DNA of 64,000 bases from Rathayibacter sp. VKM Ac-2857 (GTDB taxonomy: Bacteria > Actinomycetota > Actinomycetes > Actinomycetales > Microbacteriaceae). The number at the start of each line of letters is the position of its first letter. The first letter of the stretch is position 1. This document shows positions 5,456 to 43,825 of this stretch, in pieces. The position numbers and the translations under genes were made by a program. The stretch is taken from the NCBI RefSeq assembly GCF_013205025.1, contig NZ_JABMLE010000003.1, forward strand, positions 124,001 to 188,000. Reading direction: 5' to 3'. The notes under the pieces were generated by a model, which was not told the origin of the DNA, made no database searches, and saw only the letters and a program-made list of their open reading frames with translations.

Positions 5456-5767
5456 TCCGGGGGGCGTCTCGAGATCCACCGTCGTCCGGTGGTGGATCTC
5501 GATACGCCCGCTCCGCGGGCTACTCGATCAGCATGAAGAGGACCCGCTCCGGACCACGGCCGCGGCCCATCACATGCTGGTCGAGTAGCCCCGCAGGGGC
5601 GTATCGAGACCCCGCATCCTCAGCAGGGCAGATCTGCAGACTCCACTCCTGACGCCGGTGGATCTCGATACGCCCGCTCCGCGGGCTACTCGATCAGCAT
5701 GAAGAGTGCGCTCCCCCCTCCATGTTGGTCGAGCGGCCCCGCAGGGGCGCCTCGAGACCCCGCGTCC
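5456..5767. repeat. Palindromic repeat cluster A (four copies) between phoX and the response regulator
   Basis: No gene is present here. Repeat copies lie at 5494-5534 (plus form), 5573-5611 (minus form), 5660-5700 (plus) and 5721-5759 (minus, degenerate). The core is TCGATACGCCC-hairpin-GGGC-TACTCGA, with either a GCTCCGC or a CCTGCGG centre. The pair 5573-5700 with its TCTGCAGA-containing spacer makes one composite element of about 130 bp. GAGATCCACC (5471-5480) pairs with GGTGGATCTC (5491-5500). The cluster separates convergent genes and may also end transcription. Confidence 0.85.
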
Positions 5768-6415
5768 TCAGAGGAGGCGGCGGGCCGAGGCCCAGGCGGT
5801 CAGCTCGTAGCGGGAGGAGAGCTGGAGCTTGCGGAGGACCGCGGAGACGTGGGACTCGACGGTCTTGACCGAGATGAAGAGCTCGGCGGCGGCCTCCTTG
5901 TAGGCGTAGCCGCGGGCGATGAGGCGCATCACCTCGCGCTCACGGGCCGAGAGGCGGTCGAGCTCGTCGACGGACTCCGCCTGCTCGCCGCTGAGGGCGC
6001 CGAAGGCGTCGAGGACGAAGCCGGCCAGGCGCGGCGAGAAGACGGCGTCGCCGCCGGCCACCGCGAGCACCGCGCGGCTGACCTCGGCGCCGGAGCTCGC
6101 CTTGGTGATGTAGCCGCGGGCGCCGGCGCGGATGACGCCGACCACGTCCTCCGCCGCGTCCGAGACGCTCAGAGCGAGGAAGCGCACCGCGTCGAGGTGC
6201 GCGGCGCTGCGGCGCAGGACCTCGGCGCCGCCCCCGCCCGCGCCGCCCGGCAGGTGCACGTCGAGCAGCACGACGTCGGGGCGCTCGGCCGCGACCAGCG
6301 CGACGGCGGAGTCGACGTCGGCCGCCTCGCCCACGACGTCGAGCTCGGGAGCGAGGTCGGCGCGCAGCCCGGAGCGGAAGATCGAGTGGTCGTCGACCAG
6401 CACGACGCGGGTCAC
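5768..6415 (-). CDS. NarL/LuxR-family response regulator
   Basis: A 215-residue two-component response regulator. The receiver domain begins VTRVVLVDDHSIFRSGLRADL and has the phosphoacceptor Asp52 in VVLLDVHLPG. The C-terminal LuxR helix-turn-helix includes LSAREREVMRLIARGYAYKEAAAELFISVKT-like sequence near residues 150-200. A GTG start at 6415 overlaps the kinase stop codon by four bases (GTGA), so translation is probably coupled and the cognate sensor is the PspC-fused kinase. The receiver has a glycine-rich insert (GGAGGGGAE) after the Asp strand. Likely targets include the divergent PspC gene pair. Confidence 0.93.
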   Translation of the reverse strand: MTRVVLVDDHSIFRSGLRADLAPELDVVGEAADVDSAVALVAAERPDVVLLDVHLPGGAGGGGAEVLRRSAAHLDAVRFLALSVSDAAEDVVGVIRAGARGYITKASSGAEVSRAVLAVAGGDAVFSPRLAGFVLDAFGALSGEQAESVDELDRLSAREREVMRLIARGYAYKEAAAELFISVKTVESHVSAVLRKLQLSSRYELTAWASARRLL

Positions 6416-7689
6416 CGCTCGGCCCCCGCCGGCAGGCGCAGGTGGACCTCGGTGCCCGAGCCGCCCGCTCCGGGCCGCACGGTCGCGCTGCCGCCGGCGC
6501 GCGCCATCCGCCCGACGATCGACTCGCGGATGCCGAGGCGGTCGCCGGGGAGGGCGCCGAGGTCGACTCCGGGGCCGCGGTCTCGCACGAAGACGTCGAC
6601 GCCGGCGTCCGACGACTCGACGTAGACCGACACCTCGCCGCCCGCGTGCCGTGCGGCGTTGAGCATCGCCTCGCGGGTGGCGGCGAGGACGGGGGCGGCG
6701 CCCGGCACCGAGGCCCCCACCGCGACCACCTCGAGCGTCGCCGGCCAGTCGAGCTCGATCGCGGCGGCGATGGCCCGGATCTCGGCCGCGAGGTCGTTCG
6801 CGACCGGGACGTCGCGCTCGAACAGCCAGTCGCGCAGCTCCCGCTCCTGCGCGCGGGCGATGCGGGCGACCTCGCTCGAGGCGCCCGCGCGGTTCTGGAT
6901 CAGGGCCAGGGTCTGCAGCACGGAGTCGTGCAGGTGCGCGGCGATCTCGGCGCGCTGCTCCTCGCGCACCCGCGCCGCCCGCTCGCCCATCAGCTCGGTC
7001 CACAGCGTGACGACCCGGGGCGCAGCGAGCACGCCCGCGGCGACGAGCAGGACCGCGACGGCGAGCACGGCGTTGACGGCGCTCGGCCGGGCCGTGAGCA
7101 CGACGGCCCCGGCGACGACGAGCACGGCGCAGGAGGCGAGGCGCACGAGGACGGAGGAGCGCGCCGAGCGCGAGGGATCGCCGCGGTCGAAGCCCAGGCT
7201 CCAGGCGACCGCGCCGCCCGAGAGCAGCGCGACGGCGGCGAGCGCCCGGGTGACCTCGGCGTCCTCTCCTCCGCGCAGCGCCACCCCGACCGAGAGCGTC
7301 GCCGCGCCTGCGACGCCGACGAGCAGCGCGGCGACCGGGACGGAGCGCCGCACACCGCCCGCCTCGTCGCCGGCGTCGCGCAGGGGCACCAGCGCCCAGA
7401 GCCACAGGTAGAGGAGCCCGCCGCCGCCGCCCAGCAGCGTCGCGACGATCGTGAGGAAGCGCACCGTCCCGACGCGCAGGCGCAGGTGCTCGGCGAGCCC
7501 CGCGCACACGCCGCCGAGCACGACCCGGCGTGGCCGGCGCAGGGGCGGCCGGCCCGCGGGGACCGGACCCGAGGGGAGTGAGCCCGAGGGGAGTGAGCCC
7601 GAGGGGAGCCGCCCCGCGGGCGCTCGGCCCGGGGACGGCCGACCGCGCGGCGGGTGCGCCGCGCTGCTCGGGAGGGTGGGTGTGCTCAC
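6412..7689 (-). CDS. PspC-domain-fused sensor histidine kinase (DesK/LiaS-like)
   Basis: A 425-residue membrane histidine kinase. A Pro/Ser-rich N-terminus with repeated LPSGS is followed by a PspC domain (RRVVLGGVCAGLAEHL... about 45-100), several hydrophobic segments, a HisKA_3 dimerisation domain with the phosphoacceptor His254 in HLHDSVLQTL, and a HATPase domain (REAMLNAARHA as N box, DRGPGVDL as G1). I took GTG at 7689 because upstream sequence is low-complexity; a TTGGAT box lies six bases before it. It probably senses envelope stress through the PspC module and phosphorylates the overlapping LuxR-type regulator. Confidence 0.9.
   Translation of the reverse strand: MSTPTLPSSAAHPPRGRPSPGRAPAGRLPSGSLPSGSLPSGPVPAGRPPLRRPRRVVLGGVCAGLAEHLRLRVGTVRFLTIVATLLGGGGGLLYLWLWALVPLRDAGDEAGGVRRSVPVAALLVGVAGAATLSVGVALRGGEDAEVTRALAAVALLSGGAVAWSLGFDRGDPSRSARSSVLVRLASCAVLVVAGAVVLTARPSAVNAVLAVAVLLVAAGVLAAPRVVTLWTELMGERAARVREEQRAEIAAHLHDSVLQTLALIQNRAGASSEVARIARAQERELRDWLFERDVPVANDLAAEIRAIAAAIELDWPATLEVVAVGASVPGAAPVLAATREAMLNAARHAGGEVSVYVESSDAGVDVFVRDRGPGVDLGALPGDRLGIRESIVGRMARAGGSATVRPGAGGSGTEVHLRLPAGAER
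7568..7607. repeat. Tandem 15-bp repeat inside the kinase N-terminus
   Basis: The unit CCCGAGGGGAGTGAG occurs at 7568-7582 and 7583-7597, with a partial third copy from 7598. It encodes the iterated LPSGS peptide on the minus strand. In-frame length variation between strains is plausible. Confidence 0.8.
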
Positions 7690-7793
7690 CCCTGCATCCA
7701 AACAGGTCGTCGGGGTCGGCGGGGCGGGAGTCGGGGTCGGATCAGGGGTTCCCCCGATGGTCGGCGGCTGTGGAGGAGGGTCACACTCGAGCC

Positions 7794-9521
7794 ATGACAG
7801 CAGCGAGCACGACCCCGCCGGACCCGGCGCAGGAGACGGCGGGCGATCCGCCGACGCCGGACCCGACCGCCTCAGGACCCGGCGCGTCCGAGACCGGCGC
7901 GTCCGGATCCGGCGCACCCGAGACCGGCGCCCCCGGCCCCGACGCCCCCTCCGAGAACCGCTTCCTCCTCTGGCTGCGCTCGCTCGACCTCGCGCGCCGG
8001 CCCGGCTGGGTCGGCGGAGTCTGCGCCGGCGTCGCCGACCGCCTCGGCATCGACCCGCTGATCGTCCGCGGCGTCTTCGTCGTGGTCGCCGTCCTCGGCG
8101 GCCCGGCCTTCCTCTTCTATGCGGCCGCCTGGCTGCTGCTGCCCGACGAGGACGGCGTGCTGCCGGTCGAGGAGCTGCTCCGCGGTCGCCTGACCCGCGT
8201 GCACGCCGGCATCGGCGCCCTGGTGCTCGCCTCGATGCTGCCCGTCGCGCAGGGCTTCTGGTCGCTCGGCGGCGCCTACACGGGAGCTGCGCCCTGGGCG
8301 CCCGCCACCGGCCGCGCCCTCTGGACCGTCGTCGTCCTGGTGCTCACCGTGCTCTTCGTGGTCTGGATCGCCCGCCGGGCCGGCCGCGCCGAAAGGACGC
8401 CACCGCCGCCGTACGGCAGCCCGGAGGGACCCGGTGCCTCGACCGCCGGCTACCCCGCCCCCACCGGCGACCCGGCGAGCACCGCTCCCCTCCTCCCCCC
8501 GCAGCGCCCGACCGAGGCGCGGCCGAGCACCCCGGAGGACCTCGCGCGGTGGCGCGAGCGCCAGGAGGAGTGGAAGGCCGAGCGGGAGGCGTTCCGCGCC
8601 CAGGAGAGCGCGACCGCCCGCGAGACCGCACGAGCCCGCGCCGAGGAGTCGAGACTCCGGGCCGCCGCGATCACCGCGGCCCGCCTCGAGCGCCGCCGGC
8701 TGCACCGCGAGGCGAACCCGCGGCTGCGGAGGAGCGTCACTCTGCTGGTGCTCGGCCTGGCGGCCGTCGCCGGCGCGATCGCGTCGCTCACCGTCTCCGG
8801 CTCGACCGCGACGGTCGTGGGCTTCAGCGTCGCGACCCTGGTGCTCGGGCTCGCGATCGTGGCGGCCGGGCTGCTCCGCCGGCGCGCGATCCTCCTGATC
8901 GCGGTCTCGGTGATCACGGTGCTGACGGCCTCGACGGCGTCGCTCGTCCCGCCGGAGCGCCAGCTGCTGCCCCTCCTCAGCTCCTACGGCGTCTCGAACG
9001 CGACGCCCGGCAGCTACGCGATGGTGGCGGGCGACCTGCAGATCACGATCGACCCGTCGCTGGGTGATCCGGGTGCGGTGATCGACGTCTGGCAGGGCGC
9101 CGGGAACATCACCGTCATGCCGATGGAGGGGGCGGCGGTCCGCCTCGAGGCGTCCACGGCGAACGGCTACTACTGGCTGACCACCGCCTTCGCCGACGGC
9201 GACGTGGGTTCCGACCCGGAGGACGTCGCGTACAGCCGCGACGGAGCCACCTGGACGCAGACCTTCGGCGACCCGGACGCCGAGCCGGTCGTCGTCCGGA
9301 TCGCGCAGGGCCGCGGCGGGGTCACCGTCTACGACCGGACCTCCGAGGACTCGACCAGCGGCGCCGCACTCGACCCGGACGGCACTGCGACCGCGGAGCC
9401 GACGTCGGAGGCGACCGCGACCGCGACCGACCTCCCCGCCCCGACGGACCCCACCACCACGACAGACCCCGGCGTCACGCCCGGAACCGAGAGCACGACC
9501 CCGACGGAGGCAGGACGATGA
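7794..9521 (+). CDS. PspC-domain membrane protein
   Basis: A 575-residue protein. A Pro/Ala/Gly-rich disordered N-terminus (1-55) precedes a PspC domain (ARRPGWVGGVCAGVADRLGIDPLIVRGVFVV..., about 70-130), two transmembrane helices, a charged and probably coiled-coil stretch rich in Arg/Glu/Ala (about 240-310), a cluster of about three membrane helices (about 315-390), an extracytoplasmic domain without recognised motifs, and a Thr-rich tail. ATG at 7794 is preceded by GGAGGAGGG. It is divergent from the PspC-kinase operon and overlaps the next gene by ATGA, so it is a candidate target and partner of the two-component system in envelope stress. Confidence 0.8.
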   Translation: MTAASTTPPDPAQETAGDPPTPDPTASGPGASETGASGSGAPETGAPGPDAPSENRFLLWLRSLDLARRPGWVGGVCAGVADRLGIDPLIVRGVFVVVAVLGGPAFLFYAAAWLLLPDEDGVLPVEELLRGRLTRVHAGIGALVLASMLPVAQGFWSLGGAYTGAAPWAPATGRALWTVVVLVLTVLFVVWIARRAGRAERTPPPPYGSPEGPGASTAGYPAPTGDPASTAPLLPPQRPTEARPSTPEDLARWRERQEEWKAEREAFRAQESATARETARARAEESRLRAAAITAARLERRRLHREANPRLRRSVTLLVLGLAAVAGAIASLTVSGSTATVVGFSVATLVLGLAIVAAGLLRRRAILLIAVSVITVLTASTASLVPPERQLLPLLSSYGVSNATPGSYAMVAGDLQITIDPSLGDPGAVIDVWQGAGNITVMPMEGAAVRLEASTANGYYWLTTAFADGDVGSDPEDVAYSRDGATWTQTFGDPDAEPVVVRIAQGRGGVTVYDRTSEDSTSGAALDPDGTATAEPTSEATATATDLPAPTDPTTTTDPGVTPGTESTTPTEAGR

Positions 9522-9790
9522 CCGCGCAGAGCACCACCGCCACGCAGACCAGCACCGCCACCGAGACCGCAAAGCGGCCCAGGATCCGCGCCGGCGCGAT
9601 CGTCTGGGGGCTGGTCCAGGCCGTCGTCGCGGTCCTCCTGCTCCTCCTCGCCGCCGACGCCGGTCTGCGCAGCGCCGTCGTCGACTGGGCGCTCTCGCTC
9701 GGTCCGGCCGGCGCCGCCGCGATCGCGATCGCCGCGCTCGGCACGATCGCCCTCCTGATCGGCCTCGTCCGGGTCCTCGACCGGCGCTGA
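9518..9790 (+). CDS. Small two-helix membrane protein
   Basis: A 90-residue protein with a Thr-rich cytoplasmic start (MTAQSTTATQTSTATET) and two predicted transmembrane helices (about 30-50 and 62-85), ending in RVLDRR. It overlaps the upstream PspC gene by four bases (ATGA), so the two are probably made together. I do not recognise the family; a structural partner of the PspC protein is the simplest reading. Confidence 0.75.
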   Translation: MTAQSTTATQTSTATETAKRPRIRAGAIVWGLVQAVVAVLLLLLAADAGLRSAVVDWALSLGPAGAAAIAIAALGTIALLIGLVRVLDRR

Positions 9791-10362
9791 CGCGCGGCAG
9801 GGCAGGGAGGCGACCGACGTCCGTGGGGTGACGGGTCTCCTACGAAAGATCACCTAGTCCGTATGGGAAACCCATGCTGATCGAGTAGCCCGCGGAGCGG
9901 GCGTATCGAGATCCACGAGCGTCAGAAGGACGAGTCTGCAGACCCGCCCTTGCTGGTGACGGTGGGTCTCGATACGCCCCTGCGGGGCTACTCGACCAAC
10001 ATGACGCGGCGCAGCCGCGTCCTTTCCCTCACCACCGAGACGCGAAGCGGCTTCGCCGCTCGATACGCCCCTGCGGGGCTGCTCGACCAGCATGCAGAGA
10101 CGCCCCTGCGGGACTACTCGACCAGCATGCAGAGACGCCGGGGCTGCTCGACCGGCATGCAGGCGGGCGTCTCCTCCCAGGAGATCGGGCCCGGAGCGGC
10201 GCACCCGTGCACCCGCAACCCCCTAGGCCGAGGCCGGACTCGAGCGCAGACTCGCAGTCCGGCCTCCGCTGCGTGCCCGGGCTCCGGCCCGCCCGCGGAC
10301 AGGCGCTCCCCCTCCCCCGAATCGAGACCGCCGATGCCCCACGCCGCCCGCAGGACGCTCCG
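9791..10362. repeat. Palindromic repeat cluster B, including an inverted composite element and a tandem degenerate array
   Basis: No convincing gene lies here. A composite element runs 9873-10003: minus-form copy 9873-9914, conserved spacer, plus-form copy 9965-10003. Its half-element order is the reverse complement of the composites near 5.6, 34.2 and 43.6 kb. Further plus-form copies at 10059-10094, 10099-10129 and 10133-10159 form a decaying array with a period of about 36 bp. From 10161 to 10362 I see only the leader of the antiporter gene. Confidence 0.85.
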
Positions 10363-12084
10363 ATGGAGCTGAGCATCGCCGCCGTCATCGGCGTAGCGGT
10401 CCTCGTGGCCGTCGCCGCGTTCGCCCGCCGCCTCGGGGTCGCCGCCCCCATCGCGCTGGTGCTCGCCGGCGTCGGGCTGTCCTTCCTCCCCGGGGTCCCC
10501 GAGGTCGTCGTGCCGCACGAGTGGGTGCTCGACGGCGTGCTGCCGCCGCTGCTCTACGCCGCGGCGATCAGCGTGCCGTTCGTCGACTTCCGCCGGAACA
10601 TCGCCACGATCAGCGGCCTCTCGGTCGTGCTCGTGCTGATCTCGGCCGCCGGGATCGGCGCGCTGCTGTTCGTCCTGCTGCCCGAGCTGGGCCTGCCGCT
10701 CGCGATCGCGGTCGGCGCGATCATCAGCCCGCCCGACGCGGTGGCCGCCACGAGCGTCGGGCGGCGCCTCGGCCTGCCGCCGAGGCTGCTGACCCTGCTC
10801 GAGGGCGAGGGGCTGATCAACGACGCGACGGCCCTGGTGCTGCTGCGCTCGGCCCTCGCCGCCGCGGCCGGCACCCTCGCGACGCCGTGGGCGGCGGCCG
10901 GCGACTTCCTCTACGCCGTGGTGGTGGCCGTGATCGTCGGCCTGGTCGCGAGCATCGTCACCGTCTTCGTCCGCTCGCGCCTGGAGGACCCGGTGCTCAA
11001 CACCGTCGTCTCCTTCGTCGTGCCGTTCGTCGCCTTCATCCCGGCCGAGAGCCTCGGCGCCTCGGGCGTGCTCGCGGTCGTCGTCGCCGGCCTGCACACC
11101 GGGCACGCCTCCTCGCGCGCCTTCACCGCGCAGTCGCGGGTGAACGACCGCATCAACTGGCGCACCGTGCAGTTCCTGCTCGAGAACGGCGTCTTCCTGC
11201 TGATCGGGCTCGAGATCCGCAGCCTGATCCAGGACGCCGACAGCGCCGCCCTGACCATCCCGGCCGCGGTCGGCATCGGGCTCGTCGCCACCGCTGGGCT
11301 GATCGTGGTGCGCTTCGCCTGGGTGGGGCCGGTGCTGCTCGGCGAGCGCTGGCAGACGCGCCGGGCCGAGCGGCGGGCGCGCGAGCAGAAGGAGCTGCTC
11401 GAGTCGACGGACGGCGTGCGGCTGCCGCGCGAGGAGCTCGGCCGGGCCAGGCGCCGCTACCAGCTGCGCCGCTCCGACTACCGCCACTTCAGCAGTAACG
11501 GCCTGGGCTGGCGAGGCGGCCTGGTGCTGGGCTGGTCGGGCATGCGCGGCGTGGTCACCCTCGCCGCCGCGCAGTCGCTGCCGGAGGACATCCCCTACCG
11601 CCCGCAGCTGGTGCTGATCGCCTTCACGGTGGCGGTGTCGACGCTGCTGATCCAGGGCAGCACCTTGCCGCTGCTGATCCGCGCCACCGGGATCCGCGGG
11701 GTCGACGTGCCGGAGGACCAGCGCGAGCTCGCGGGCCTGCTCGACGAGATCACCGAGAAAGGGCTCTCGATCCTCGAGACGCCCGGCGAGGTGGTCGAGG
11801 GCGTCGACGAGGTCGATCCCGATGTGCTCGAGCGCGTGCGCCAGACCTCGTTCCTCCGCTCGGAGGCGGCCTGGGAGCGGGCGCGCGGCTCCCGGCGCGA
11901 CGCGGCCGACACCCCGCACCGCCTCTACCGGGCGCTGCGGCTCGCGGTCGTCTCGGCCGAGCGCGAGGCCCTGCTCGACGCGCGGTCGCGGCGGGCGTAC
12001 CCGCAGCGGATCCTCGGCCAGGCGCAGGCGCTGCTCGACCTCGAGGAGACCCGGCTGCGGCTGCGGCGCGGCTCGACCTCATAG
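10363..12084 (+). CDS. CPA1-family Na+/H+ (cation/proton) antiporter
   Basis: A 573-residue integral membrane exchanger. About a dozen transmembrane segments run from residue 4 to about 460. The family motifs IISPPDAVAATSVGRRL (about 118-134) and EGEGLINDATALVLLRSAL (about 145-163) hold the aspartates of the ion-binding core. An unusually charged cytoplasmic loop (ERWQTRRAERRAREQKE..., about 325-380) separates two late helices, and a hydrophilic C-terminal domain of about 110 residues follows, with RR/DE-rich helices. The start at 10363 has AGGA upstream and the hydrophobic N-terminus begins at once. Role: pH and sodium homeostasis. No regulatory partner is adjacent. Confidence 0.92.
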   Translation: MELSIAAVIGVAVLVAVAAFARRLGVAAPIALVLAGVGLSFLPGVPEVVVPHEWVLDGVLPPLLYAAAISVPFVDFRRNIATISGLSVVLVLISAAGIGALLFVLLPELGLPLAIAVGAIISPPDAVAATSVGRRLGLPPRLLTLLEGEGLINDATALVLLRSALAAAAGTLATPWAAAGDFLYAVVVAVIVGLVASIVTVFVRSRLEDPVLNTVVSFVVPFVAFIPAESLGASGVLAVVVAGLHTGHASSRAFTAQSRVNDRINWRTVQFLLENGVFLLIGLEIRSLIQDADSAALTIPAAVGIGLVATAGLIVVRFAWVGPVLLGERWQTRRAERRAREQKELLESTDGVRLPREELGRARRRYQLRRSDYRHFSSNGLGWRGGLVLGWSGMRGVVTLAAAQSLPEDIPYRPQLVLIAFTVAVSTLLIQGSTLPLLIRATGIRGVDVPEDQRELAGLLDEITEKGLSILETPGEVVEGVDEVDPDVLERVRQTSFLRSEAAWERARGSRRDAADTPHRLYRALRLAVVSAEREALLDARSRRAYPQRILGQAQALLDLEETRLRLRRGSTS

Positions 12085-12342
12085 GCGCGGAGACGAGGGC
12101 CGTCCGCGCGCTCCCACTCCGCGTGCCCCCCTGGCCACCGATGCGATTCGACGCTCGTCCACGCCACCGACTGCGAGCGGAAGCACCCCCGTCCGGGGGA
12201 CAGGCGGGCCCCCCTGTCGGGGTACTCGGCCTTCTCGGCCCGGAGGAGAGCCGAGGAGCCCGCGGGTCTGTCAAGATCGGACTGCTCTCGCGCATCGCCA
12301 GGGTCCGCCGCGCGGACTCACGACTCGACAGGATCGGCACCA

Positions 12343-13674
12343 GTGGGAATTCGCGAATACGGACGCCTCCTCCGCCGGGGCTGGCTCATCATCTCGGTCT
12401 GCGTCGCCCTCGGGCTCGCCATCGCGTCCGCGGCGACGGTCGCCTCCGACGCCGAGTACCGCGCGCAGACGACCGTGTTCGTCTCGGTCGCGACCGTCAC
12501 CAACCAGTCGAGCGCCGAGGTCGGCGCGTCCTTCACGAGCGCGGAGGCGCGCGTCGCCTCCTACGTCGCCCTCGTCGACTCGAGCTCGGTGCTGCAGCCC
12601 GTGATCGACCGGCTCCAGCTCGACCTCTCGGTCGGCGACCTCGCCGACGAGGTCACCGCCGCCGCCCTGCCCGGAACGGTCATCATGAGCATCGACGTCG
12701 TCGACGACGAGGCCCAGCGCGCGGCCGACATCGCCGACGCGGTCGCGCAGAGCCTCAGCGCCTACGTCGCCCAGATCGAGGCGCCGGCCGACGGCGGTCC
12801 GAGCCGCGTCGACGTGAAGGTCCTCGAGTCGGCCGTGGCGCCCAGCTCGCCGCTCAGCCCCGACCTGCTGGTCTACCTGATCCTGGGCGGCGCCACCGGA
12901 CTGATCGTGGGCGTCGGCATCGTCGTCCTGCGCTCGCTCGGCGACGGGAGGATCCGCTCGGCGAAGGACGTCGCGAGCGGCACCTCGCTGCCGGTGCTCG
13001 AGTCGATCCCGTACGACGCCGCGATCCGCCGGACGCCGCTGGTCGTGGACGGCCGCAGCGCCGTCGCCGAGTCGTTCCGGATGCTGCGCACCACCATCCT
13101 CTTCGGCTCCGGCGCCCGCGAGCGCACCCTGCTCGTGACGTCGGCGCGGGACGGCGACGGCAAGAGCACCGTCGTGGCCAACCTCGCCGCCTCGATCGCC
13201 CAGGTCGGCCGGACCGTCGTCGTCATCGACGCCGATCTGCGCGCCCCCGCCCAGGCCGGCCTCTTCGGCATCCCCGACGGCGGCCCCACCCTCGGCGAGC
13301 TGCTGCGCTCGGGCAGCCTCCCCGTCGACGCCGAGCTGTCGGTGAGCGCCGGCGGCGTGACCGTCCTCCCCGCGGGCACCGCCACCGCGAACCCCAGCGA
13401 CCTGCTCGGCACGCCGACGATGGAGCGCGTCGTCCGCTACCTCTCCCGCCACTTCGACCACGTCGTCATCGACGCCCCCGCGATCCTCACCGCGACCGAC
13501 GCCGTGCTCCTCAGCACCCTCGTGGGCACGACGGTGCTGGTGGCGGGAGCCGGTGTGTCGTCCTCGGCCGACCTCGCCTCGGCCGCCGACCGCCTACGCG
13601 ATGTGGGTGGCGACGTGCTCGGTGCCGTCGTCGCCCGCGCCCCCAGCGGCGCGCCGGTCGCGACGCCGGCCTGA
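12343..13674 (+). CDS. Wzz/BY-kinase-like exopolysaccharide chain-length protein
   Basis: A 443-residue polysaccharide co-polymerase fused to a tyrosine-autokinase-type ATPase. Transmembrane helices lie at about 14-36 and 175-197, with an extracytoplasmic Wzz domain between. The ATPase has Walker A SARDGDGKST (about 268-277), Walker A' VVVIDADLR and Walker B HVVIDAPA. The C-terminus ends SGAPVATPA and has no tyrosine cluster, so autophosphorylation of the usual type is doubtful. GTG start with AGGA nine bases upstream. It converges on, and overlaps by 81 bp, the polymerase gene. Role: control of exopolysaccharide length and export with the flippase and polymerase opposite. Confidence 0.88.
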   Translation: MGIREYGRLLRRGWLIISVCVALGLAIASAATVASDAEYRAQTTVFVSVATVTNQSSAEVGASFTSAEARVASYVALVDSSSVLQPVIDRLQLDLSVGDLADEVTAAALPGTVIMSIDVVDDEAQRAADIADAVAQSLSAYVAQIEAPADGGPSRVDVKVLESAVAPSSPLSPDLLVYLILGGATGLIVGVGIVVLRSLGDGRIRSAKDVASGTSLPVLESIPYDAAIRRTPLVVDGRSAVAESFRMLRTTILFGSGARERTLLVTSARDGDGKSTVVANLAASIAQVGRTVVVIDADLRAPAQAGLFGIPDGGPTLGELLRSGSLPVDAELSVSAGGVTVLPAGTATANPSDLLGTPTMERVVRYLSRHFDHVVIDAPAILTATDAVLLSTLVGTTVLVAGAGVSSSADLASAADRLRDVGGDVLGAVVARAPSGAPVATPA

Positions 13675-34047: not shown

Positions 34048-34473
34048 CGCCGGCGGATCTCGATACGCCCGCTCCGCGGGCTACTCGATCAGCAAAGAGG
34101 ACCGCTCCGCGGGCTGCCCGATCAGCAAAGGGGGCCGCTCCACGGGCCGCTCGACAGCGAAGAGGTCCGCTCCGCGGGCTGCTCGACAAGCGGCAGAGCC
34201 ACCTCCCGCGCAGGCGCGCCCGCCCCATGCTGGTCGAGTAGCCCCGCAGGGGCGTATCGAGACCCGCCGTCCCCAGCAGGGCGGGTCTGCAGACTCAGGT
34301 TCTGACGTCGGTGGATCTCGATACGCCCGCTCCGCGGCCCACTCGATCAGCAAGGAAGGCCGGCAGCGCGAGCACATGCTGCTCGAGTAGCCGCGCAGCG
34401 GCGTATCGAGACCCCGCGCCCCTAAGCTGCCCCTGATCCGCGCGCACCACCGCGCGCAGGAGGGGCCCGCACC
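34048..34473. repeat. Palindromic repeat cluster C (seven copies, one composite element)
   Basis: No gene is seen. Copies: 34055-34094 (plus form), partial plus forms at 34102-34127, 34134-34158 and 34166-34191 in tandem with a period of about 32 bp, then minus form 34226-34264, plus form 34313-34352 and minus form 34375-34413. 34226-34352 is a composite element with spacer motif GCAGGGCGGGTCTGCAGACT at 34276-34295, identical to 43617-43636. A TAAGCT box near 34424 may be the promoter of the next gene. Confidence 0.85.
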
Positions 34474-35473: not shown

Positions 35474-35479
35474 TATCCT
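35474..35479 (+). promoter_or_regulatory. Leaderless-type -10 box TATCCT for nucS
   Basis: TATCCT, then six bases (CGACGG), then GTG at 35486. Confidence 0.6.
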
Positions 35480-35485
35480 CGACGG

Positions 35486-36181: not shown

Positions 36182-36244
36182 CGCTCGCGTCCCCCTTTGC
36201 AGGGGCTCTGCGAGAAACCCTGCGCGGTCGCACGAATCCGCACG

Positions 36245-36280
36245 CGAAAGGCCCCGTCGACGGATCGACGGGGCCTTTCG
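36245..36280. terminator. Bidirectional intrinsic terminator between nucS and lsr2
   Basis: Arms 36245-36260 and 36265-36280 form a perfect 16-bp stem (CGAAAGGCCCCGTCGA and its complement) with a 4-base loop. A-rich and T-rich ends on both sides suit termination of both convergent genes. Confidence 0.9.
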
Positions 36281-36320
36281 ACGGTGCGGGCGCGACCTCT
36301 CGGTGCGCCGAGGCGCGACT

Positions 36321-36662: not shown

Positions 36663-36897
36663 TTTTCCTCCTGGATGTCACTGACAGGAGAAGACATTAC
36701 CCCTCCTTGCTGCCTCGGCGAGCACTTATCGCCGCCATTCGCGCGATTCATCGCCATGATCTGCGCCGATACTCAGGATAAGCACGCGGATTGCGCCTGA
36801 GAATCGGCTCATCTCTCCGCCATCCGTCGTATATCGCATGCGGTCGACGAATGCGCGCGATTGTCGCGACAGATTCGATTGATGGCGCGAACCCGGA

Positions 36898-36903
36898 TAC
36901 CGT
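36898..36903 (+). promoter_or_regulatory. Leaderless-type -10 box TACCGT for the SseB-like gene
   Basis: TACCGT, then six bases (GAAGGC), then ATG at 36910. The 247-bp gap back to lsr2 holds nothing else I can name, apart from the lsr2 leader. Confidence 0.6.
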
Positions 36904-36909
36904 GAAGGC

Positions 36910-37347
36910 ATGCCCCGGAGGAACGGACCCCCTGCCCGCCCGTCGCGACCCGGCCCGTACCGCAACACGGCGGCGCGCGACGCGCTCGAGGCGCTGGTCG
37001 CCGACGCCACCGCGGAGGGCGTGGAGCGCCTCCTCGCCGCCTGCCTCGAGGGGTCGCTCGTCGTCGACGTGACCGGCTCGCAGCCGGGCGGAGTGCCGCA
37101 CGTGCGGGTGGTCGCCGCCACCACCGGCGAGCAGGTGCTCCCGCTCTTCACCTCGACCGACGAGCTGCGCGCCGCCGTCCCCCGGCAGCAGCACCCGCGC
37201 GTGCAGATGCTGGTCCTGCCCGGCCGCGAGGCGTTCGCCCTGATCCGCACCGCCGACTTCGTCGCCGTCCAGCTCGACGCGGGCTCGATCGCCCAGGTCG
37301 TCGCCCGGTCGTTCATCGAGCAGTCCCTCGACGCCCCGGCACCGTAG
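36910..37347 (+). CDS. SseB-family protein
   Basis: A 145-residue protein resembling the SseB N-terminal domain. The core is LEGSLVVDVTGSQPGGVPHVRVVAATTGEQVLPLFTSTDELRAAVP, followed by VQMLVLPGREAFALI. A basic, Pro-rich N-terminus precedes it. The function of actinobacterial SseB-like proteins is not known. It is followed 64 bases later by the HAD gene in the same direction. Confidence 0.82.
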   Translation: MPRRNGPPARPSRPGPYRNTAARDALEALVADATAEGVERLLAACLEGSLVVDVTGSQPGGVPHVRVVAATTGEQVLPLFTSTDELRAAVPRQQHPRVQMLVLPGREAFALIRTADFVAVQLDAGSIAQVVARSFIEQSLDAPAP

Positions 37348-37411
37348 AGTGTTCCCCCCGACGGGGCACACCGCCGGGATCACCTTCGTCCCTCGAGGGC
37401 AGGAGCCCGCC

Positions 37412-38107
37412 ATGTCCGACACCACTCTCGCGCCCGATGCGCAGCCAGGCCTCGCAGCGACCTGGAGCTGCATCCTCTTCGACCTCGACGGCACGATCAC
37501 CGACTCCGCGCCCGGCATCACCGGCACCCTCGTCGACACCTTCGTCGAGCTCGGCCGCCCGGTGCCGACGCCCGCCGAGCTGCTCGCCTACGTCGGCCCG
37601 CCGCTGCTCGACGCGTTCCGCGAGCTGGGCGGGATGAGCGTCGACGAGGCGCAGGCGGCCCTCGTGGTCTATCGCCGCCGCTACAACGCGGGCGGGCTCT
37701 TCGACTCCAGCGTCTACCCCGGGCTGCCGGAGCTGCTGGCGGGCATCGCCGCCTCGGGCATCCCGCTCTCGCTCGCCACCTCGAAGCCGGAGTCGGCCGC
37801 ACGCCGGGTCCTCGAGCACTACGGCCTCGCCCAGCACTTCACGATCATCTGCGGCGCCTCCGAGGACGAGGTCCGCAGCGCGAAGGCGGACGTGGTCGAG
37901 GAGGCGCTGCGCCGGCTCCGCGAGATCGGCGTCGACCTCTCGACGCCCGTCATGGTCGGCGACCGCGAGCACGACGTGCACGGTGCCGCCGCCCACGGGG
38001 TGCCGACGATCATGGTCGAGTGGGGCTACGGCTCGCCGCTCGAGGCGGTCGGCACGATCGCGGTGGCCTCGGGCGCGGACGAGCTGCGGACGCTCCTGCT
38101 GCCCTGA
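37412..38107 (+). CDS. HAD-superfamily hydrolase (Gph-like)
   Basis: A 231-residue phosphatase with nucleophile Asp24 and acid/base Asp26 in LFDLDGTITDSAPG, Thr/Ser motif II in LSLATSKPESAARRVLEH, Lys in the ADVVEEAL region and the acidic motif MVGDREHDVHGAAAHGV. The small helical cap is that of phosphoglycolate phosphatase/5'-nucleotidase-like members. The ATG at 37412 is preceded by AGGAG at six bases and is preferred over an upstream ATG at 37349. Substrate is probably a small phosphate ester or nucleotide. Confidence 0.9.
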   Translation: MSDTTLAPDAQPGLAATWSCILFDLDGTITDSAPGITGTLVDTFVELGRPVPTPAELLAYVGPPLLDAFRELGGMSVDEAQAALVVYRRRYNAGGLFDSSVYPGLPELLAGIAASGIPLSLATSKPESAARRVLEHYGLAQHFTIICGASEDEVRSAKADVVEEALRRLREIGVDLSTPVMVGDREHDVHGAAAHGVPTIMVEWGYGSPLEAVGTIAVASGADELRTLLLP

Positions 38108-38167
38108 GCCGAGCGAGGGCGGGCCGGGCGCTCGCCCTCGGGCGCCTCCTTCCCGTCGTGCGCCCCG

Positions 38168-38173
38168 TACGAT
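38168..38173 (+). promoter_or_regulatory. Leaderless-type -10 box TACGAT for the small membrane ORF
   Basis: TACGAT, then six bases (GAGGGC), then ATG at 38180. This supports expression of the short ORF. Confidence 0.6.
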
Positions 38174-38179
38174 GAGGGC

Positions 38180-38350
38180 ATGACTGGTCTGGGCGTCGTC
38201 CTCTCTTTCGTGCTCTTCCTCGGCGGCATCCTGGTGCTCGGCAACTCGTTCCTGCTGCCCGACCTCGCCGGCTTCCTCTTCTTCGGCGGGATCCTGATGA
38301 TCTCGGCGTCGCTCGGGCTCGCCTTCCACCTGCTGCCGAAGTCGGAGTAG
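38180..38350 (+). CDS. Small two-helix membrane protein (56 residues)
   Basis: The sequence MTGLGVVLSFVLFLGGILVL begins the first of two hydrophobic helices (about 3-20 and 30-50), and the protein ends HLLPKSE. The ORF is short but has a well-placed -10 box, a clean stop and codon use like its neighbours. I do not recognise a family. Confidence 0.7.
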   Translation: MTGLGVVLSFVLFLGGILVLGNSFLLPDLAGFLFFGGILMISASLGLAFHLLPKSE

Positions 38351-38407
38351 CGCTCCGCGCCTCGCGAGCGGGCCGTGCCGCGCGGCCACTCGGGCCGGCG
38401 CGGTCGC

Positions 38408-38875
38408 TCAGCCCAGGTAGTTCGCGTCGAGGTTGATGACGTTGCCGATGTAGACCGCCTCGCCCGCCCCCGCGACCCCGGGGTTCATCCGCAGCAGCTG
38501 CTGCACCGGAATCCCGAAGCGCTGCGCGATGTCGAAGAACGAGTCGCCCTCCACCACGGTGTAGGTGACGATGTCCCCCGCGGCGTTCGTGGCCGGCTCG
38601 CCGCTCGCCCCCGGGACCGCGCCGTTGTCGACGGCGAAGGCCGTCTCGGGGATCACGGGCACGTCGTTCGGGGTGAAGGTCACCGTCGCCTCCGGCACCG
38701 GCACGAAGACCGTGGCCGTCGACTGCGGGAGCGCGGCCGTCACGGTCGGATCGGGAGTCGGCGTCGCCGTGGCGAAGACCGTCACCGTGGGGGCCGGAGC
38801 CGGTGCGGAGCAGCCGGCGAGCCCCGCCGACAGCGCGAGCACGACCAGCGCGCCTCCGAGTACCCGTGCGCGCAT
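38408..38875 (-). CDS. LysM-domain lipoprotein
   Basis: A 155-residue exported protein with a lipobox LAGC near residue 22. A Thr/Pro-rich linker (about 25-100) precedes a LysM domain (VTYTVVEGDSFFDIAQRFGIPVQQLLRMNPGV, about 103-135), which binds peptidoglycan. Ribosome site GGGGAG lies before the ATG. It probably sits on the membrane and holds the cell wall. Confidence 0.9.
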   Translation of the reverse strand: MRARVLGGALVVLALSAGLAGCSAPAPAPTVTVFATATPTPDPTVTAALPQSTATVFVPVPEATVTFTPNDVPVIPETAFAVDNGAVPGASGEPATNAAGDIVTYTVVEGDSFFDIAQRFGIPVQQLLRMNPGVAGAGEAVYIGNVINLDANYLG

Positions 38876-38972
38876 CTGCTCCCCCTCGTCGCGCCCACCC
38901 CCGGACGCACTGCTCCACCCTAGGAGACGCGCGGGGCGGGTCGTCGCCGGACGACGCTCCGGACGGGCGACG

Positions 38973-39008
38973 CGGCGCGGATCAGGCGTGCGGCGCGGAT
39001 CAGGCGTG
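38973..39008. repeat. Tandem 18-bp duplication covering the stop codon of the DUF7882 gene
   Basis: CGGCGCGGATCAGGCGTG occurs at 38973-38990 and 38991-39008. The gene's TGA (39000-39002) lies in the second unit, and the first unit repeats it in frame downstream. Confidence 0.8.
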
Positions 39009-39302
39009 CGGCTCGGGCAGGAGCCGCAGCCCGCCGCCGCCGTTCGCCGCGTCCATCAGCAGCTCGACCCAGGACGGGTTGATCGTGGGCTGGCGGCTGC
39101 CGGCGAAGTGGAACTGCAGCGCGATGTTCGGATTCATCCAGAACGAGTGGCGACCGCGTGCGCCCTCGGGCATCGAGTCGAGGGTGAGGCTGAAGCGCTC
39201 GTCGCGCCGGAACTTCGCGTAGACCACGATCTGCAGGTGCGCGAGGGTCCGATCCTCGATCTCGAGCACGGCCGGCGGTGTGCCGTAGAGGAATTGACCC
39301 AT
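39000..39302 (-). CDS. DUF7882-type small protein
   Basis: A 100-residue protein starting MGQFLYGTPPAVLEIEDRTLAHLQIVVYAKFRR and with SFWMNPNIALQFHFAG, matching the short Microbacteriaceae family often annotated as DUF7882 or, wrongly, as ATP-dependent DNA ligase. A leaderless-type promoter and a CTAGT-N10-ACTAG site just upstream suggest control by the adjacent MarR regulator. Function unknown. Confidence 0.78.
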   Translation of the reverse strand: MGQFLYGTPPAVLEIEDRTLAHLQIVVYAKFRRDERFSLTLDSMPEGARGRHSFWMNPNIALQFHFAGSRQPTINPSWVELLMDAANGGGGLRLLPEPHA

Positions 39303-39308
39303 GGAGCC

Positions 39309-39314
39309 AGCCTA
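39309..39314 (-). promoter_or_regulatory. Leaderless-type -10 box TAGGCT for DUF7882
   Basis: On the minus strand TAGGCT is followed by six bases (GGCTCC) and then ATG at 39302. Confidence 0.6.
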
Positions 39315-39317
39315 TCC

Positions 39318-39337
39318 CTAGTCCGGCTCTTTACTAG
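39318..39337. promoter_or_regulatory. Candidate MarR operator, CTAGT-N10-ACTAG
   Basis: Perfect inverted repeat CTAGT (39318-39322) and ACTAG (39333-39337), placed between the -10 box and the expected -35 of DUF7882. Two more CTAG tetramers follow at 39343-39350. CTAG is rare in GC-rich genomes. Confidence 0.5.
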
Positions 39338-39346
39338 AAGGTCTAG

Positions 39347-39889
39347 CTAGTTCTCGGCTTCGTCGGAGGCAGGGACCGACTCGGCCTCGTCCGCATCGAT
39401 CTCGTCGACCGCGGCCCCCATCCGCCGGAGGAAGTTGACGACCACCTCGGCCTCGCCCGGGTCGAGGTCCTCCGCGATCTCGAGCATCCGGCGGTGCATC
39501 TGCTGCAGCGTCTCGCGGACCTCCTGGTCGCTGTCGACCGTGGCCTCGACGACGATGCCGCGCCGATCGCTCGGGTGCGGCTTGCGCACCAGGTGCCCGC
39601 TGCGGACGAGGCGGTCGATCAGCACCGTGGTCGAGGCGGACGAGATCGAGAGGTGGGCGGCGAGGTCCTTCGCGCTGACGAGGTCGCCCTCGCGCTGCCG
39701 GCGGAGCAGGAACTGGATCGCGATGAGGTCGGTCTCGCCCATCGCCATCTTCTCGCGCGTGCGGCGGCGCATCGCGACCTCGGAGACGCGGTACCCGCGC
39801 ATCGCGCTCAGCACCTCGACGGCACGACGCGTCGACGACTCGTCCGGGTACCAGTAGCCCGCGCCGCCCCGGACCGTCGTCTCGCTCAT
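39347..39889 (-). CDS. MarR-family transcriptional regulator
   Basis: A 180-residue winged-helix regulator. The DNA-binding part reads LVSAKDLAAHLSISSASTTVLIDRLVRSGHLVRKPHPSDRRGIVVEAT (about 75-125, with the wing DRR), and the flanking helices form the dimer. An N-terminal extension of about 50 residues (TRRAVEVLSAMRGYRVSEVAMRRRTREKMAMGE) is present. Its own promoter is leaderless-type with an inverted repeat over it, so autoregulation is likely. Targets are probably DUF7882 and the divergent ABC-F gene. Confidence 0.9.
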   Translation of the reverse strand: MSETTVRGGAGYWYPDESSTRRAVEVLSAMRGYRVSEVAMRRRTREKMAMGETDLIAIQFLLRRQREGDLVSAKDLAAHLSISSASTTVLIDRLVRSGHLVRKPHPSDRRGIVVEATVDSDQEVRETLQQMHRRMLEIAEDLDPGEAEVVVNFLRRMGAAVDEIDADEAESVPASDEAEN

Positions 39890-39895
39890 CCGGCC

Positions 39896-39901
39896 ATCCT
39901 A
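39896..39901 (-). promoter_or_regulatory. Leaderless-type -10 box TAGGAT for marR
   Basis: On the minus strand TAGGAT is followed by six bases (GGCCGG) and then ATG at 39889. The box overlaps the inverted repeat at 39899-39927. Confidence 0.6.
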
Positions 39902-39927
39902 GACGGGCGTGCAATCAGGCCGTCTAG
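39899..39927. promoter_or_regulatory. Candidate MarR operator, CTAGACGG-N13-CCGTCTAG
   Basis: Perfect 8-bp arms lie in the 76-bp gap between the divergent marR and ABC-F genes, spanning from the marR -10 to its -35 region and abutting the ABC-F -35 region. Confidence 0.6.
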
Positions 39928-39953
39928 CGAGATCGAGCCCCCGCGCGCCCGCC

Positions 39954-39959
39954 TACGCT
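39954..39959 (+). promoter_or_regulatory. Leaderless-type -10 box TACGCT for the ABC-F gene
   Basis: TACGCT, then six bases (GGACCG), then GTG at 39966. Confidence 0.6.
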
Positions 39960-39965
39960 GGACCG

Positions 39966-41636
<1,671 letters not shown>

Positions 41637-41651
41637 CCCGCGCGCTCGACC

Positions 41652-42896
41652 TCACAGCGACGCGGCGCGCGCCAGCAGCAGCGCGCGGGTGCGCTCGTTG
41701 CCGGCCAGCGCGGCGGCCGTCGCGAGCTCCGCCCGCGCCTCCTCCCGCCGGCCCAGGCGCGCGAGCAGCTCGCCGCGCACGCTCGGCAGCAGGTGCGAGC
41801 CCCGCAGGGCGCCCTCGGTCGCGAGCCGGTCGACGACGAGCAGCGCGGAGGCGGGACCGGTCGCCATCGAGACCGCGACGGCGCGGTTCAGCTCGACGAC
41901 CGGGCTCGGCGACACCCGCCCGAGGATCTCGTACAGCAGCACGATGCGCTCCCAGTCGGTCGCCGCCACGCTCGGCGCGACCGCGTGGCACTCGGCGATC
42001 GCCGCCTGCAGTCCGTAGGAGCCGCGCCCCCTGCCCACGCGATCGGCGCGCCGCAGCGCCTCCCGGCCGCGCTCGATCTGACCGCGGTCCCAGCGGGTGC
42101 GGTCCTGGTCCTCGAGCAGCACCGGAGAGCCGTCGGGCGCGGTCCGCGCCGCGAACCGCGAGGCCTGCAGCTCCATCAGGGCGAGCAGCCCCAGCACCTC
42201 GGGCTCGCGCGGCAGGAGCGCGGCGAGCACCCGGCCGAGCCGCAGCGCCTCCCCTGCCACCTCCGTGCGCAGCCAGCGGTCCCCCGAGGTCGCCGCGTAG
42301 CCCTCCGTGAAGATCAGGTAGACGACCCCGAGCACCGCGTCGAGCCGCGCCTTCCACTCCGCCGGCTCCGGGACCTCGAACGGCACGCCCGAGGCCGCGA
42401 GCGACTTCTTCGCCCGGACGATCCGCTGCTGGACGGTCGCGACCGGCACCAGGAACAGCCGTGCGATCGCCTCCGTCCCGAGCCCGCCGACGAGGCGCAG
42501 GGTGAGCGCGATGCTCGCCTCCCGCGACAGGACGGGGTGGCAGGCGGTGAAGACCAGCCGGAGCACGTCGTCCTCGATCGGCCGCCACTCGTCGTCGACG
42601 GTCTCCTCGAGGGTGCGCGCGAGCAGGCGGTAGCGGTCGTCGAGCGCGGTCCTGCGCCGCCAGCCGTCGATCGCCCGGCGCTTGGCCACCGCCGTCAGCC
42701 AGGCCCCGGCGTTGCGCGGGACACCGGTCGTCGGCCACTGCTCGAGCGCCTCGACGAGGGCCTCCTGCGCCAGGTCCTCGGCGAGGCCGACGTCACCGGT
42801 GACCCGGGCGAGCGTCGCGACGATGCGCGCGCTCTCGATCCGCCAGACGGCGGCGACCCGCGCGCGGGTCCCCTCCGCGTCGGCCGGGCCGTCCAT
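41652..42896 (-). CDS. ECF sigma factor with C-terminal extension (ECF42-like)
   Basis: A 414-residue sigma factor. Region 2 is WRIESARIVATLARVTGDVGLAEDLAQEALVEALEQWP...AWLTAVAKRRAIDGWRR and region 4 is TLRLVGGLGTEAIARLFLVPVATVQQRIVRAKKSL. A long helical C-terminal domain of about 220 residues (DUF6596/TPR-like) follows. This architecture, and the adjacent DGPF/YCII gene, are the hallmarks of group ECF42, where the extension controls activity and no anti-sigma factor is needed. The ATG at 42896 is two bases after the YCII stop. Convergent with the ABC-F gene, 15 bp apart. Confidence 0.9.
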   Translation of the reverse strand: MDGPADAEGTRARVAAVWRIESARIVATLARVTGDVGLAEDLAQEALVEALEQWPTTGVPRNAGAWLTAVAKRRAIDGWRRRTALDDRYRLLARTLEETVDDEWRPIEDDVLRLVFTACHPVLSREASIALTLRLVGGLGTEAIARLFLVPVATVQQRIVRAKKSLAASGVPFEVPEPAEWKARLDAVLGVVYLIFTEGYAATSGDRWLRTEVAGEALRLGRVLAALLPREPEVLGLLALMELQASRFAARTAPDGSPVLLEDQDRTRWDRGQIERGREALRRADRVGRGRGSYGLQAAIAECHAVAPSVAATDWERIVLLYEILGRVSPSPVVELNRAVAVSMATGPASALLVVDRLATEGALRGSHLLPSVRGELLARLGRREEARAELATAAALAGNERTRALLLARAASL

Positions 42897-42898
42897 CT

Positions 42899-43339
42899 TC
42901 AGTCCCCCGCGGCGCGGGCCTTCTCGTCCTCGCGCCAGCCGGCCTCCTTCTGCAGGTACTCGTTGTCGGCGAAGTCCGCGAAGTCGCTCTCGTCGGTGAC
43001 GCGGCGCACCTCGAGCGTGTTGCCGGGGACGAGCGGGCAGCGCAGCGCCCACTCCTTCGCCTCCTCCTTCGAGGAGACCTGGATGATCCAGAAGCCGTTG
43101 AACAGCTCGTGCGTCTCGCCGTAGGGGCCGTCGGTGATCGCGGCCGGCTCGGAGGAGAAGTCGACCACGAACCCGGAGGTCGCGACGTCGTCGGAGAGGC
43201 CCTCGCCCGCGAGCAGGACGCCCGCGGTGATCATCGCCTCGTTGTACTGCCCCATCCGAGTGATGATCTCGTCGAACGGGATCGCCTCGTAGGCGGCCTT
43301 GGCGGCGTCGGTCGCGCGCATGATCAGCATGTACTTCAC
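42899..43339 (-). CDS. DGPF/YCII-family protein, ECF42 partner
   Basis: A 146-residue YCII-related protein. VKYMLIMRATDAAKAAYEAIP begins the fold and ITDGPYGETHELFNGFWIIQVSS carries the DGPF motif as DGPY. GTG at 43339 has AGGAG six bases upstream and is preferred over an in-frame ATG 28 codons earlier. It is the first gene of a two-gene operon with the sigma factor and is a likely target of it. Biochemical function of DGPF proteins is not settled. Confidence 0.9.
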   Translation of the reverse strand: MKYMLIMRATDAAKAAYEAIPFDEIITRMGQYNEAMITAGVLLAGEGLSDDVATSGFVVDFSSEPAAITDGPYGETHELFNGFWIIQVSSKEEAKEWALRCPLVPGNTLEVRRVTDESDFADFADNEYLQKEAGWREDEKARAAGD

Positions 43340-43825
43340 GGTGTTCTCCTCGAGAGTCGCGGGCGCTGTCTGCGCCCTCCTACTATCGCGTCGAACGGCG
43401 CCCCCCGATATCGACACCCCCACCGAGAAGAATCGGAATCATGCCGGTCGGCGTCTCGGTGGTGAGCGAAAGGACCCGCGGCGGCCCGTTCATGCTGGTC
43501 GAGTAGCCCCGAAGGGGCGTGTCGGCACCATGCTGGTCGAGTAGCCCAGCAGGGGCGCTTCAGCATCATGCTGGTCGAGTAGCCCCGCAGGGGCGTATCG
43601 AGACCCGCCGTCACCAGCAGGGCGGGTCTGCAGACTCGACTTCTGACGCAGGTGGATCTCGATACGCCCGCTCCGCGAGCTACTCGATCACCATGGACCG
43701 TCGGCGCGCCTGCCGCCGGCCGAGCAGCCCAGCAGGGGCGCTTCGGCATCATGCTGGTCGAGTAGCCCCGCAGGGGCGTATCGAGACCCACCCACCCAGC
43801 ACGCCGACCCGCCGCCCCCGCAGCC
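43340..43825. repeat. Palindromic repeat cluster D (six copies, one composite element)
   Basis: No gene is seen. Copies: minus forms 43491-43524, 43529-43558 and 43567-43605, plus form 43654-43695, partial minus 43718-43741, and minus 43750-43788. 43567-43695 is a composite element whose spacer 20-mer at 43617-43636 is identical to that at 34276-34295. Confidence 0.85.

Follow-up and report, generated by a model that had tools for sequence, protein, structure and literature searches.

The stretch of DNA analysed here, hereafter the window, comprises 64,000 nucleotides of the actinobacterium Rathayibacter sp. VKM Ac-2857 (positions 124001-188000 of contig 3; the genome as a whole is referred to as G000), and our subject is a composite palindromic unit of about 130 bp that occurs in it four times. 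We read this unit as a non-autonomous mobile element resembling a REPIN, that is, an inverted pair of repetitive extragenic palindromic (REP) sequences, and as the probable product of internal deletion within a larger element that carries a gene for a DUF222-HNH protein between two hairpin halves, in the order G-half, gene, A-half. On the sequence comparisons given below, from which the action of the protein is itself deduced, we assign this reading a probability of roughly 0.6. In G000, the DUF222-HNH enzyme family may be what spreads such repeats.

All four units share the build recognised by the original prediction, namely a half-element, a spacer bearing TCTGCAGA and a second, inverted half-element; a spacer 20-mer of unit 3 (34276-34295) is present as an identical copy in unit 4 (43617-43636), as can be read directly in the sequence. 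The window also holds a fifth head-to-head unit, further half-element cores and a variant end module:

5573..5701, plus strand: composite unit 1, G-half, 51-type spacer and inverted A-half
9873..10003, minus strand: composite unit 2, G-half, 51-class spacer and inverted A-half, the whole unit inverted
34226..34354, plus strand: composite unit 3, G-half, 51-class spacer and inverted A-half
43567..43695, plus strand: composite unit 4, G-half, 51-class spacer and inverted A-half
45503..45638, plus strand: fifth head-to-head unit, a G/G pair with a 61-class spacer
5497..5527, minus strand: further A-half core, by core pattern match
34058..34088, minus strand: further A-half core, by core pattern match
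34383..34411, plus strand: further half core, by core pattern match
43758..43786, plus strand: further G-half core, by core pattern match
9833..9867, plus strand: variant end module adjoining the A-half of unit 2, similar to a module at locus L262

In the scan of the window for half cores, matches with five mismatches are at chance level (20 in three one-strand shuffles), whereas cores with zero mismatches are not due to chance.

The half-elements form a very large family in this genome. The exact core pattern, TCGAGTAGC-N6..16-GCGTATCGAGA, has 525 forward and 522 reverse copies in G000 (1,047 in all), against 0 for the reversed-pattern control, and a looser pattern finds 209 halves in 448 kb of G000 against 1 in the reversed sequence. 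A search of the genome with 127 bp of unit 3 (window 34226-34352), in which the best 40 of 461 first-look candidates were scored, gave 195 matches, and among the matches listed 54 are near-full-length composites, the query included (at least 124 query bases at no less than 88% identity). The architecture of the family was surveyed in the same 448 kb with a relaxed pattern, which yielded 200 halves. Originally the two halves had been distinguished by their hairpin centres, from which the orientation of a unit was read; orientation is indeed readable, but the centre varies, and what separates the halves is a covarying outer base pair, the G-half being GGTCGAGTAG..CGTATCGAGACC and the A-half GATCGAGTAG..CGTATCGAGATC. 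This outer pair is G-C in 101 of the 200 halves, A-T in 75 and something else in 24. We call the underlying palindrome, TCGAGTAG..CGTATCGAGA, class I.

The halves follow a near-strict rule of pairing. Neighbours within 150 bp are arranged head-to-head in 72 cases, tail-to-tail in 49 and head-to-tail in 19, with 8 halves unpaired. G/A heterodimers make up 70 of the head-to-head cases. These run from G to A along the chromosome in 37 cases and from A to G in 33, without bias; thus, although unit 2 is inverted as a whole, as had been proposed, it is not the exceptional copy that it seemed to be. The head-to-head spacers measure 19-22, 49-54 or 60-62 bp, with one exception of 35 bp, whereas the tail-to-tail spacers are scattered from 7 to 147 bp, which suggests that it is the head-to-head pair that spreads as a unit. 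In several genera the spacer lengths fall into classes (about 10-14, 20, 50-51 and 61 bp) that approximate whole turns of the helix, a spacing that may point to pairs of proteins bound to duplex DNA.

The hairpin itself is maintained by covariation, since 170 of 180 stem positions are paired in 36 distinct 13-nt inner sequences, compared with a mean of 120 and a maximum of 131 in 300 shuffles. A GNA triloop, a loop type noted for its stability in DNA, is present in 26 of 58 distinct inners. The halves contain the GTAG tetranucleotide, but internally: 12 further nucleotides on its 5' side, CATGCTGRTCGA, are conserved, and the boundary lies at CATG. The two TCGA arms enclose a GTA/GTA step that lacks palindromic symmetry, and this would favour recognition of the hairpin as a folded single strand.

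Comparison with relatives indicates that the units are not fixed at their sites. Genome G400, whose aligned blocks are mostly 91-96% identical to G000, and four other relatives (G399, G116, G331 and G263) are collinear with the region. For unit 1, none of the five has a counterpart composite, and the corresponding gap in G116 holds two single halves. Unit 2 likewise has no counterpart composite in the five; its orthologous gap contains no half-element in G400, G399 and G116 and no exact half in G331 and G263. The interval of unit 3 contains a composite only in G116, where the gene content differs, and unit 4 has a counterpart only in G400, in which the outer half is single, compared with three tandem copies in the window. 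Local tandem accretion of half copies is seen, and intergenic clusters of half-elements are common in G000. Across the 448 kb, alignment gaps against G400 hold halves in G000 only in 13 cases, in G400 only in 2 and in both genomes in 42. The spacers, conserved in three length classes among the head-to-head pairs of the 448 kb, and the differing sites in the five relatives bear out the earlier proposal of a non-autonomous element akin to a miniature inverted-repeat transposable element (MITE) or a bacterial interspersed mosaic element (BIME).

The obvious precedent is the REPIN or BIME, a dimer of GTAG-type REP sequences linked to a REP-associated tyrosine transposase (RAYT). The likeness is considerable: short hairpins in inverted pairs with GTAG facing outward, conserved head-to-head and variable tail-to-tail spacing, hundreds of copies, and sites that differ between relatives. 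Such repeats, their dimers and their spacers are described in the portion of PMC3733652 drawn on here, which assigns GTAG repeats to Proteobacteria, Cyanobacteria, Chloroflexi and the Planctomycetes-Verrucomicrobia-Chlamydiae (PVC) group; as far as that portion extends, the word Actinobacteria is absent from its main text. One may therefore argue that the present repeats are classical REP sequences spread by a since-lost RAYT (a Y1 HuH transposase), with the DUF222-HNH genes as passengers. In addition to the spacing rules and the GTAG motif, which the same source gives as REP features, its available text allows that REPtrons may be missing through deletion (PMC3733652). However, the RAYT domain PF01797 has no match in G000, in a test in which 5 of 14 control genomes were positive; it is also absent from G616, an actinobacterium of another family with similar repeats, and it is found in only 3 of 398 genomes of the family, all three without exact half-elements. 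Furthermore, the motif runs beyond GTAG (CATGCTGRTCGAGTAG..CGTATCGAGAYC), so that GTAG does not lie at the terminus of the element and the conserved sequence continues to CATG, and a lost RAYT leaves the fixed arrangement with DUF222-HNH genes unexplained. We consider this explanation quite unlikely, and the candidate partner here is the DUF222-HNH protein.

A MITE is a non-autonomous derivative that keeps both ends of a gene-bearing parent, and the halves that end the composites also enclose DUF222-HNH genes. The original prediction had suggested looking for a RAYT or another transposase gene flanked by the half-elements; no RAYT was found, but these genes are flanked, and we regard them as candidate drivers of half-element movement. 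G000 has 16 DUF222 matches, none of which falls inside the window. Halves are found upstream of 13 of the 16 loci, downstream of 15 and on both sides of 13, and the three loci without an upstream half are L267 and L269, cut by contig ends and counted as two genes since their sequences differ, and L256, which is bare. In a matched control (the same windows around 156 G000 genes longer than 900 bp, with DUF222 loci excluded), only 12 of 156 genes have halves on both sides. The nearest halves are in outward head-to-head order at 6 of the 16 DUF222 loci and at none of the 156 control genes. Distances are also fixed at both gene ends: in 7 of the 14 loci whose start could be placed, 118-119 nt separate the end of the upstream half from the start codon (123 nt in one further locus), and in 9 of 16 the distance from the first base of the stop codon to TCTCGATACG is 13-14 nt. 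Polarity is also ordered, since the nearest upstream half faces outward in 10 loci, all of them read as G-type (that of L271 being diverged), and on the 3' side 8 of 10 readable halves are A-type and 2 are G-type (L257 and L267). G-type at the 5' side and A-type at the 3' side is the order of the composites.

Half-elements may simply pile up in loose intergenic DNA where DUF222-HNH genes also happen to sit. Consistent with such ordinary clustering, half density is raised even beyond 350 bp from these genes (1.25 per kb), in a genome in which intergenic half clusters are frequent anyway. The fixed distances at both ends, the outward order seen at DUF222 loci but not at control genes, and the 54-fold enrichment of a second palindrome near DUF222-HNH genes of other genera (see below) are not expected from it, and we regard clustering as very improbable. 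A search that started from the repeats rather than the gene found an enclosed gene in 2 of 27 head-to-head gaps of 150-4000 bp in the 448 kb, which is no enrichment, and one of the two held the HNH gene. When the genes near halves were clustered across genomes, the clusters were mostly of orthologues from close relatives, but one that joined G000, G400 and G616 pointed to the same gene family; tblastn confirmed DUF222-HNH in all three.

Some gene-bearing loci depart from this plan. In L263 and L264 a variant 3' end occupies the place where the half should begin, with a diverged form in L271; this sequence, CTACTTGGAAGAGACGC, follows the DUF222-HNH stop codon, and a similar run precedes the fifth unit of the window at about 45480-45505. 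Another variant end module, GGTCTCNTANGAAAGATCACCTNRTNCGTATGGG, lies directly beside a half or takes its place at window positions 9833-9867, at L262 and in G400 beside unit 4, and has 4 matches in the 448 kb of G000 and 1 in 467 kb of G400. At L262 the G-half is missing upstream of the gene, and a module like that beside unit 2 stands in its place. L266 (contig 3 of G000, about 324.2-325.6 kb) is a DUF222-HNH copy broken by a frameshift and flanked by halves, and the corresponding interval of G400 has no such gene.

The gene-less composites carry what appears to be a trace of the gene. The right end of the 51-type composite is TTCTGACGNTGGTGGA, and in 33 of 47 such composites it includes TTCTGA (at most 1 mismatch) with the TGA exactly 13 nt before TCTCGATACG, the distance at which the stop codon lies in the gene-bearing loci. 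In 31 of 47, the final 24 nt of the spacer contain TTCTGACG (at most 1 mismatch), compared with 0.7% of shuffles. Because a stop-codon remnant persists at the same 13-nt distance, the 51-type composites are probably internal deletions of the element bearing the DUF222-HNH gene. In addition, DUF222-HNH genes that lack class I flanks can also end in Pro-Phe-stop (4 of 4 each in G199, G134, G303 and G224), and on this ground the composite is read as derived from the gene-bearing element.

The opposite direction is conceivable, in which DUF222-HNH is a homing-type endonuclease gene that colonised palindromes spread by other means, and the gene-less composite is the empty site. HNH is a common motif among homing nucleases, many half-bearing genomes have unflanked DUF222 genes, and one has no DUF222 gene at all. 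Nevertheless, a gene-end-like remnant at a constant 13 nt in most 51-type composites fits a deletion derivative more than an empty site, and colonisation leaves the spread of the palindromes unexplained; we hold this alternative to be unlikely.

A similar arrangement recurs in other genera with a different palindrome. The class II palindrome, CCTGAGCNTGTCGAAGG, flanks DUF222-HNH genes in G134 and G187, of one genus, and in G303 and G224, of another, all four genomes lacking exact class I halves. At the four genes fetched per genome it is present upstream in 16 of 16 cases and downstream in 15 of 16, with a density of 7.59 per kb near the genes and 0.14 per kb far from them. Upstream copies are strongly oriented (39 plus, 3 minus), and the nearest one starts at -89/-90 or at -102 to -114 from the start codon. 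Exact class II copies occur in 73 of the 398 family genomes, with up to 400 in one and none in G000. A motif-free test, which asked for words inverted across the gene, recovered class I words in G000 (the best word at 10 of 16 loci), class II words in G187, G224 and G303, three of the four class II genomes, and a third word, AGCGACCGAAGCCC, at 3 of 17 DUF222 loci of G129. The wider cross-genome flank survey covered 166 DUF222 loci, one G194 gene being present twice. In a tree of 156 DUF222 proteins (the 166 loci minus nine, namely short matches, L266 and sequences with a stop or X, and minus one duplicate), the palindrome classes cluster, requiring 23 changes against a shuffled mean of 48.9 with none of 200 shuffles as low; near-copies inflate this contrast and we do not rely on it. 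We consider it an even bet that DUF222-HNH proteins are an unrecognised class of actinobacterial palindrome-mobilising nucleases with a RAYT-like role, each active lineage having its cognate hairpin (class I, class II and perhaps a third) and mini-elements being spread in trans.

Several observations weigh against this interpretation or narrow it. Within G000, half-elements are so common that nearness to a DUF222 gene is in itself a weak argument, and the outward order holds at a minority of loci. The remnant TTCTGACG is lacking in 15 of 16 composites of the 20-type and in 6 of 6 of the 61-type. The left side of the spacer is not shared with the gene-bearing element beyond the half: the 51-type composite matches the 5' flank of the gene over only 6 bp, and the 61-type has an 11-bp match whose score (22) does not exceed that of the best shuffle (26). 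The Pro-Phe end is not universal either (1 of 4 genes in G001, 0 of 4 in G383, 0 of 11 in G616), and no target-site duplication or clean pair of insertion and empty site was seen in the gaps inspected against relatives. Downstream of the class II genes, orientation is mixed (28 plus, 15 minus; 7 plus and 8 minus for the nearest copies), and in G616 all halves are G-type and pair with one another rather than with A-halves.

The association of class I halves with DUF222 genes is, moreover, patchy. G116 has class I flanks upstream in 4/4 loci and downstream in 2/4, but elsewhere upstream halves are partial or missing: 11/21 in G331, 5/11 in G616, 4/9 in G358, 3/5 in G359, 2/4 in G263, 3/17 in G129, 2/10 in G271, 1/13 in G132, 1/12 in G045, 0/1 in G194 and 1/3 in G265 (of 11 genes in that genome). 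Even genomes that contain no exact copy give 0.1-0.35 matches per kb with the relaxed class I pattern, so the smallest of these counts amount to background. At eight loci of G001 and G199, one relaxed class I match was seen upstream and class II was absent, and G276 has 75 exact halves with no DUF222 match. Either many DUF222 copies are immobile and some of the repeats have outlasted their enzyme, or the work is shared with, or done by, another enzyme.

Pfam finds only DUF222 (PF02720, E 1.6e-17) and HNH (PF01844, E 1.2e-4) in the protein of L265, with no known transposase domain in the gene-bearing parent, and the HNH residues H347, N361 and H370 together with C331, C336 and C366 are invariant in 19 chosen aligned proteins. 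A comparison with solved structures gave no significant match (best E 0.069), and a fold model of DUF222 built from a two-sequence alignment was discarded (mean predicted local distance difference test score, pLDDT, 39). The unit consists of two inverted hairpin halves, GTAG outward, around a short spacer. In the mechanism that we propose as most likely, the DUF222-HNH protein would recognise the foot of the hairpin (TCGAGTA/GTATCGA), possibly in the form of folded single-stranded DNA, and its HNH site would nick or cut there. The enclosed DNA, whether gene-bearing or gene-less, might then be copied elsewhere, chiefly into intergenic DNA and frequently next to copies already present.

Other known systems share parts of this picture. 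The REP13E12 or 13E12 repeat of mycobacteria also involves a multicopy DUF222-HNH gene family, the names being linked through the consulted part of PMC10589994. The parts of that paper and of PMC13061034 used here describe a repetitive element, a hotspot of gene conversion and a putative phage attachment site, with no function defined for it, and do not mention palindromic ends. Our comparison is one of descriptions rather than of the mycobacterial copies themselves. IS200/IS605 elements likewise have hairpins near their ends that are probably read as single-stranded DNA, according to the section of PMC6006769 used here; in contrast, no Y1 transposase was found here, and a single hairpin type, in inverted copies, forms both ends. 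The MITEs of DDE transposons are derivatives that retain both ends of a gene-bearing parent, but the parent here encodes DUF222 and HNH rather than a DDE transposase, and no target-site duplication was seen in the gaps inspected. Among the matches listed in open-licence PubMed Central (PMC), no title or abstract connects palindromic repeats with DUF222 or 13E12 genes.

In terms of distribution, the exact core is present in 83 of 398 family genomes and in 33 of 85 genera, and the ten same-genus genomes of that sample have between 0 and 1,047 copies. In a sample of the phylum, a slightly wider pattern was found in 4 of 296 genomes, namely G000, two family members and G616. The repeats of G616 (L236-L239) have the same foot motif with longer stems and lie in tandem arrays, with a head-to-head spacing of 50 bp in 19 of 22 neighbour pairs and a tail-to-tail spacing of 4 bp in 20 of 21. 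The composite has no match in named plasmids and phages, and half-element matches in these were at chance level only and were set aside. Half-elements of the form GGTCGAGTAG..CGTATCGAGACC are present at 22 loci in 21 viral contigs of 50-60% GC (L182-L188, L192, L194, L198, L200-L202, L206, L208, L210, L212, L213, L215, L217, L219 and L224), and in L183 and L186 the half sits inside a long open frame. The hosts of these contigs are perhaps not actinobacterial and may be Chloroflexota. No close phage-borne DUF222-HNH protein was found, and a profile search found three distant ones; in viral contig L422, a repeated motif lies upstream of a gene for a distant DUF222-HNH protein (30% identity).

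In summary, G000 and other genomes of the family are rich in REP-like repeats, yet the transposase known to mobilise repeats of this kind was not found there, and DUF222-HNH genes, the mycobacterial 13E12 family included, are multicopy and have no assigned function in the available parts of the literature (PMC10589994, PMC13061034). If the repeats and the DUF222-HNH genes are connected, the two puzzles merge into a single question that can be tested. As the half motif is also found in viral contigs of much lower GC, its reach may be wider than the family. If the relationship proposed here is true, DNA would be moved in a new way, by an HNH nuclease that lacks a known transposase partner.

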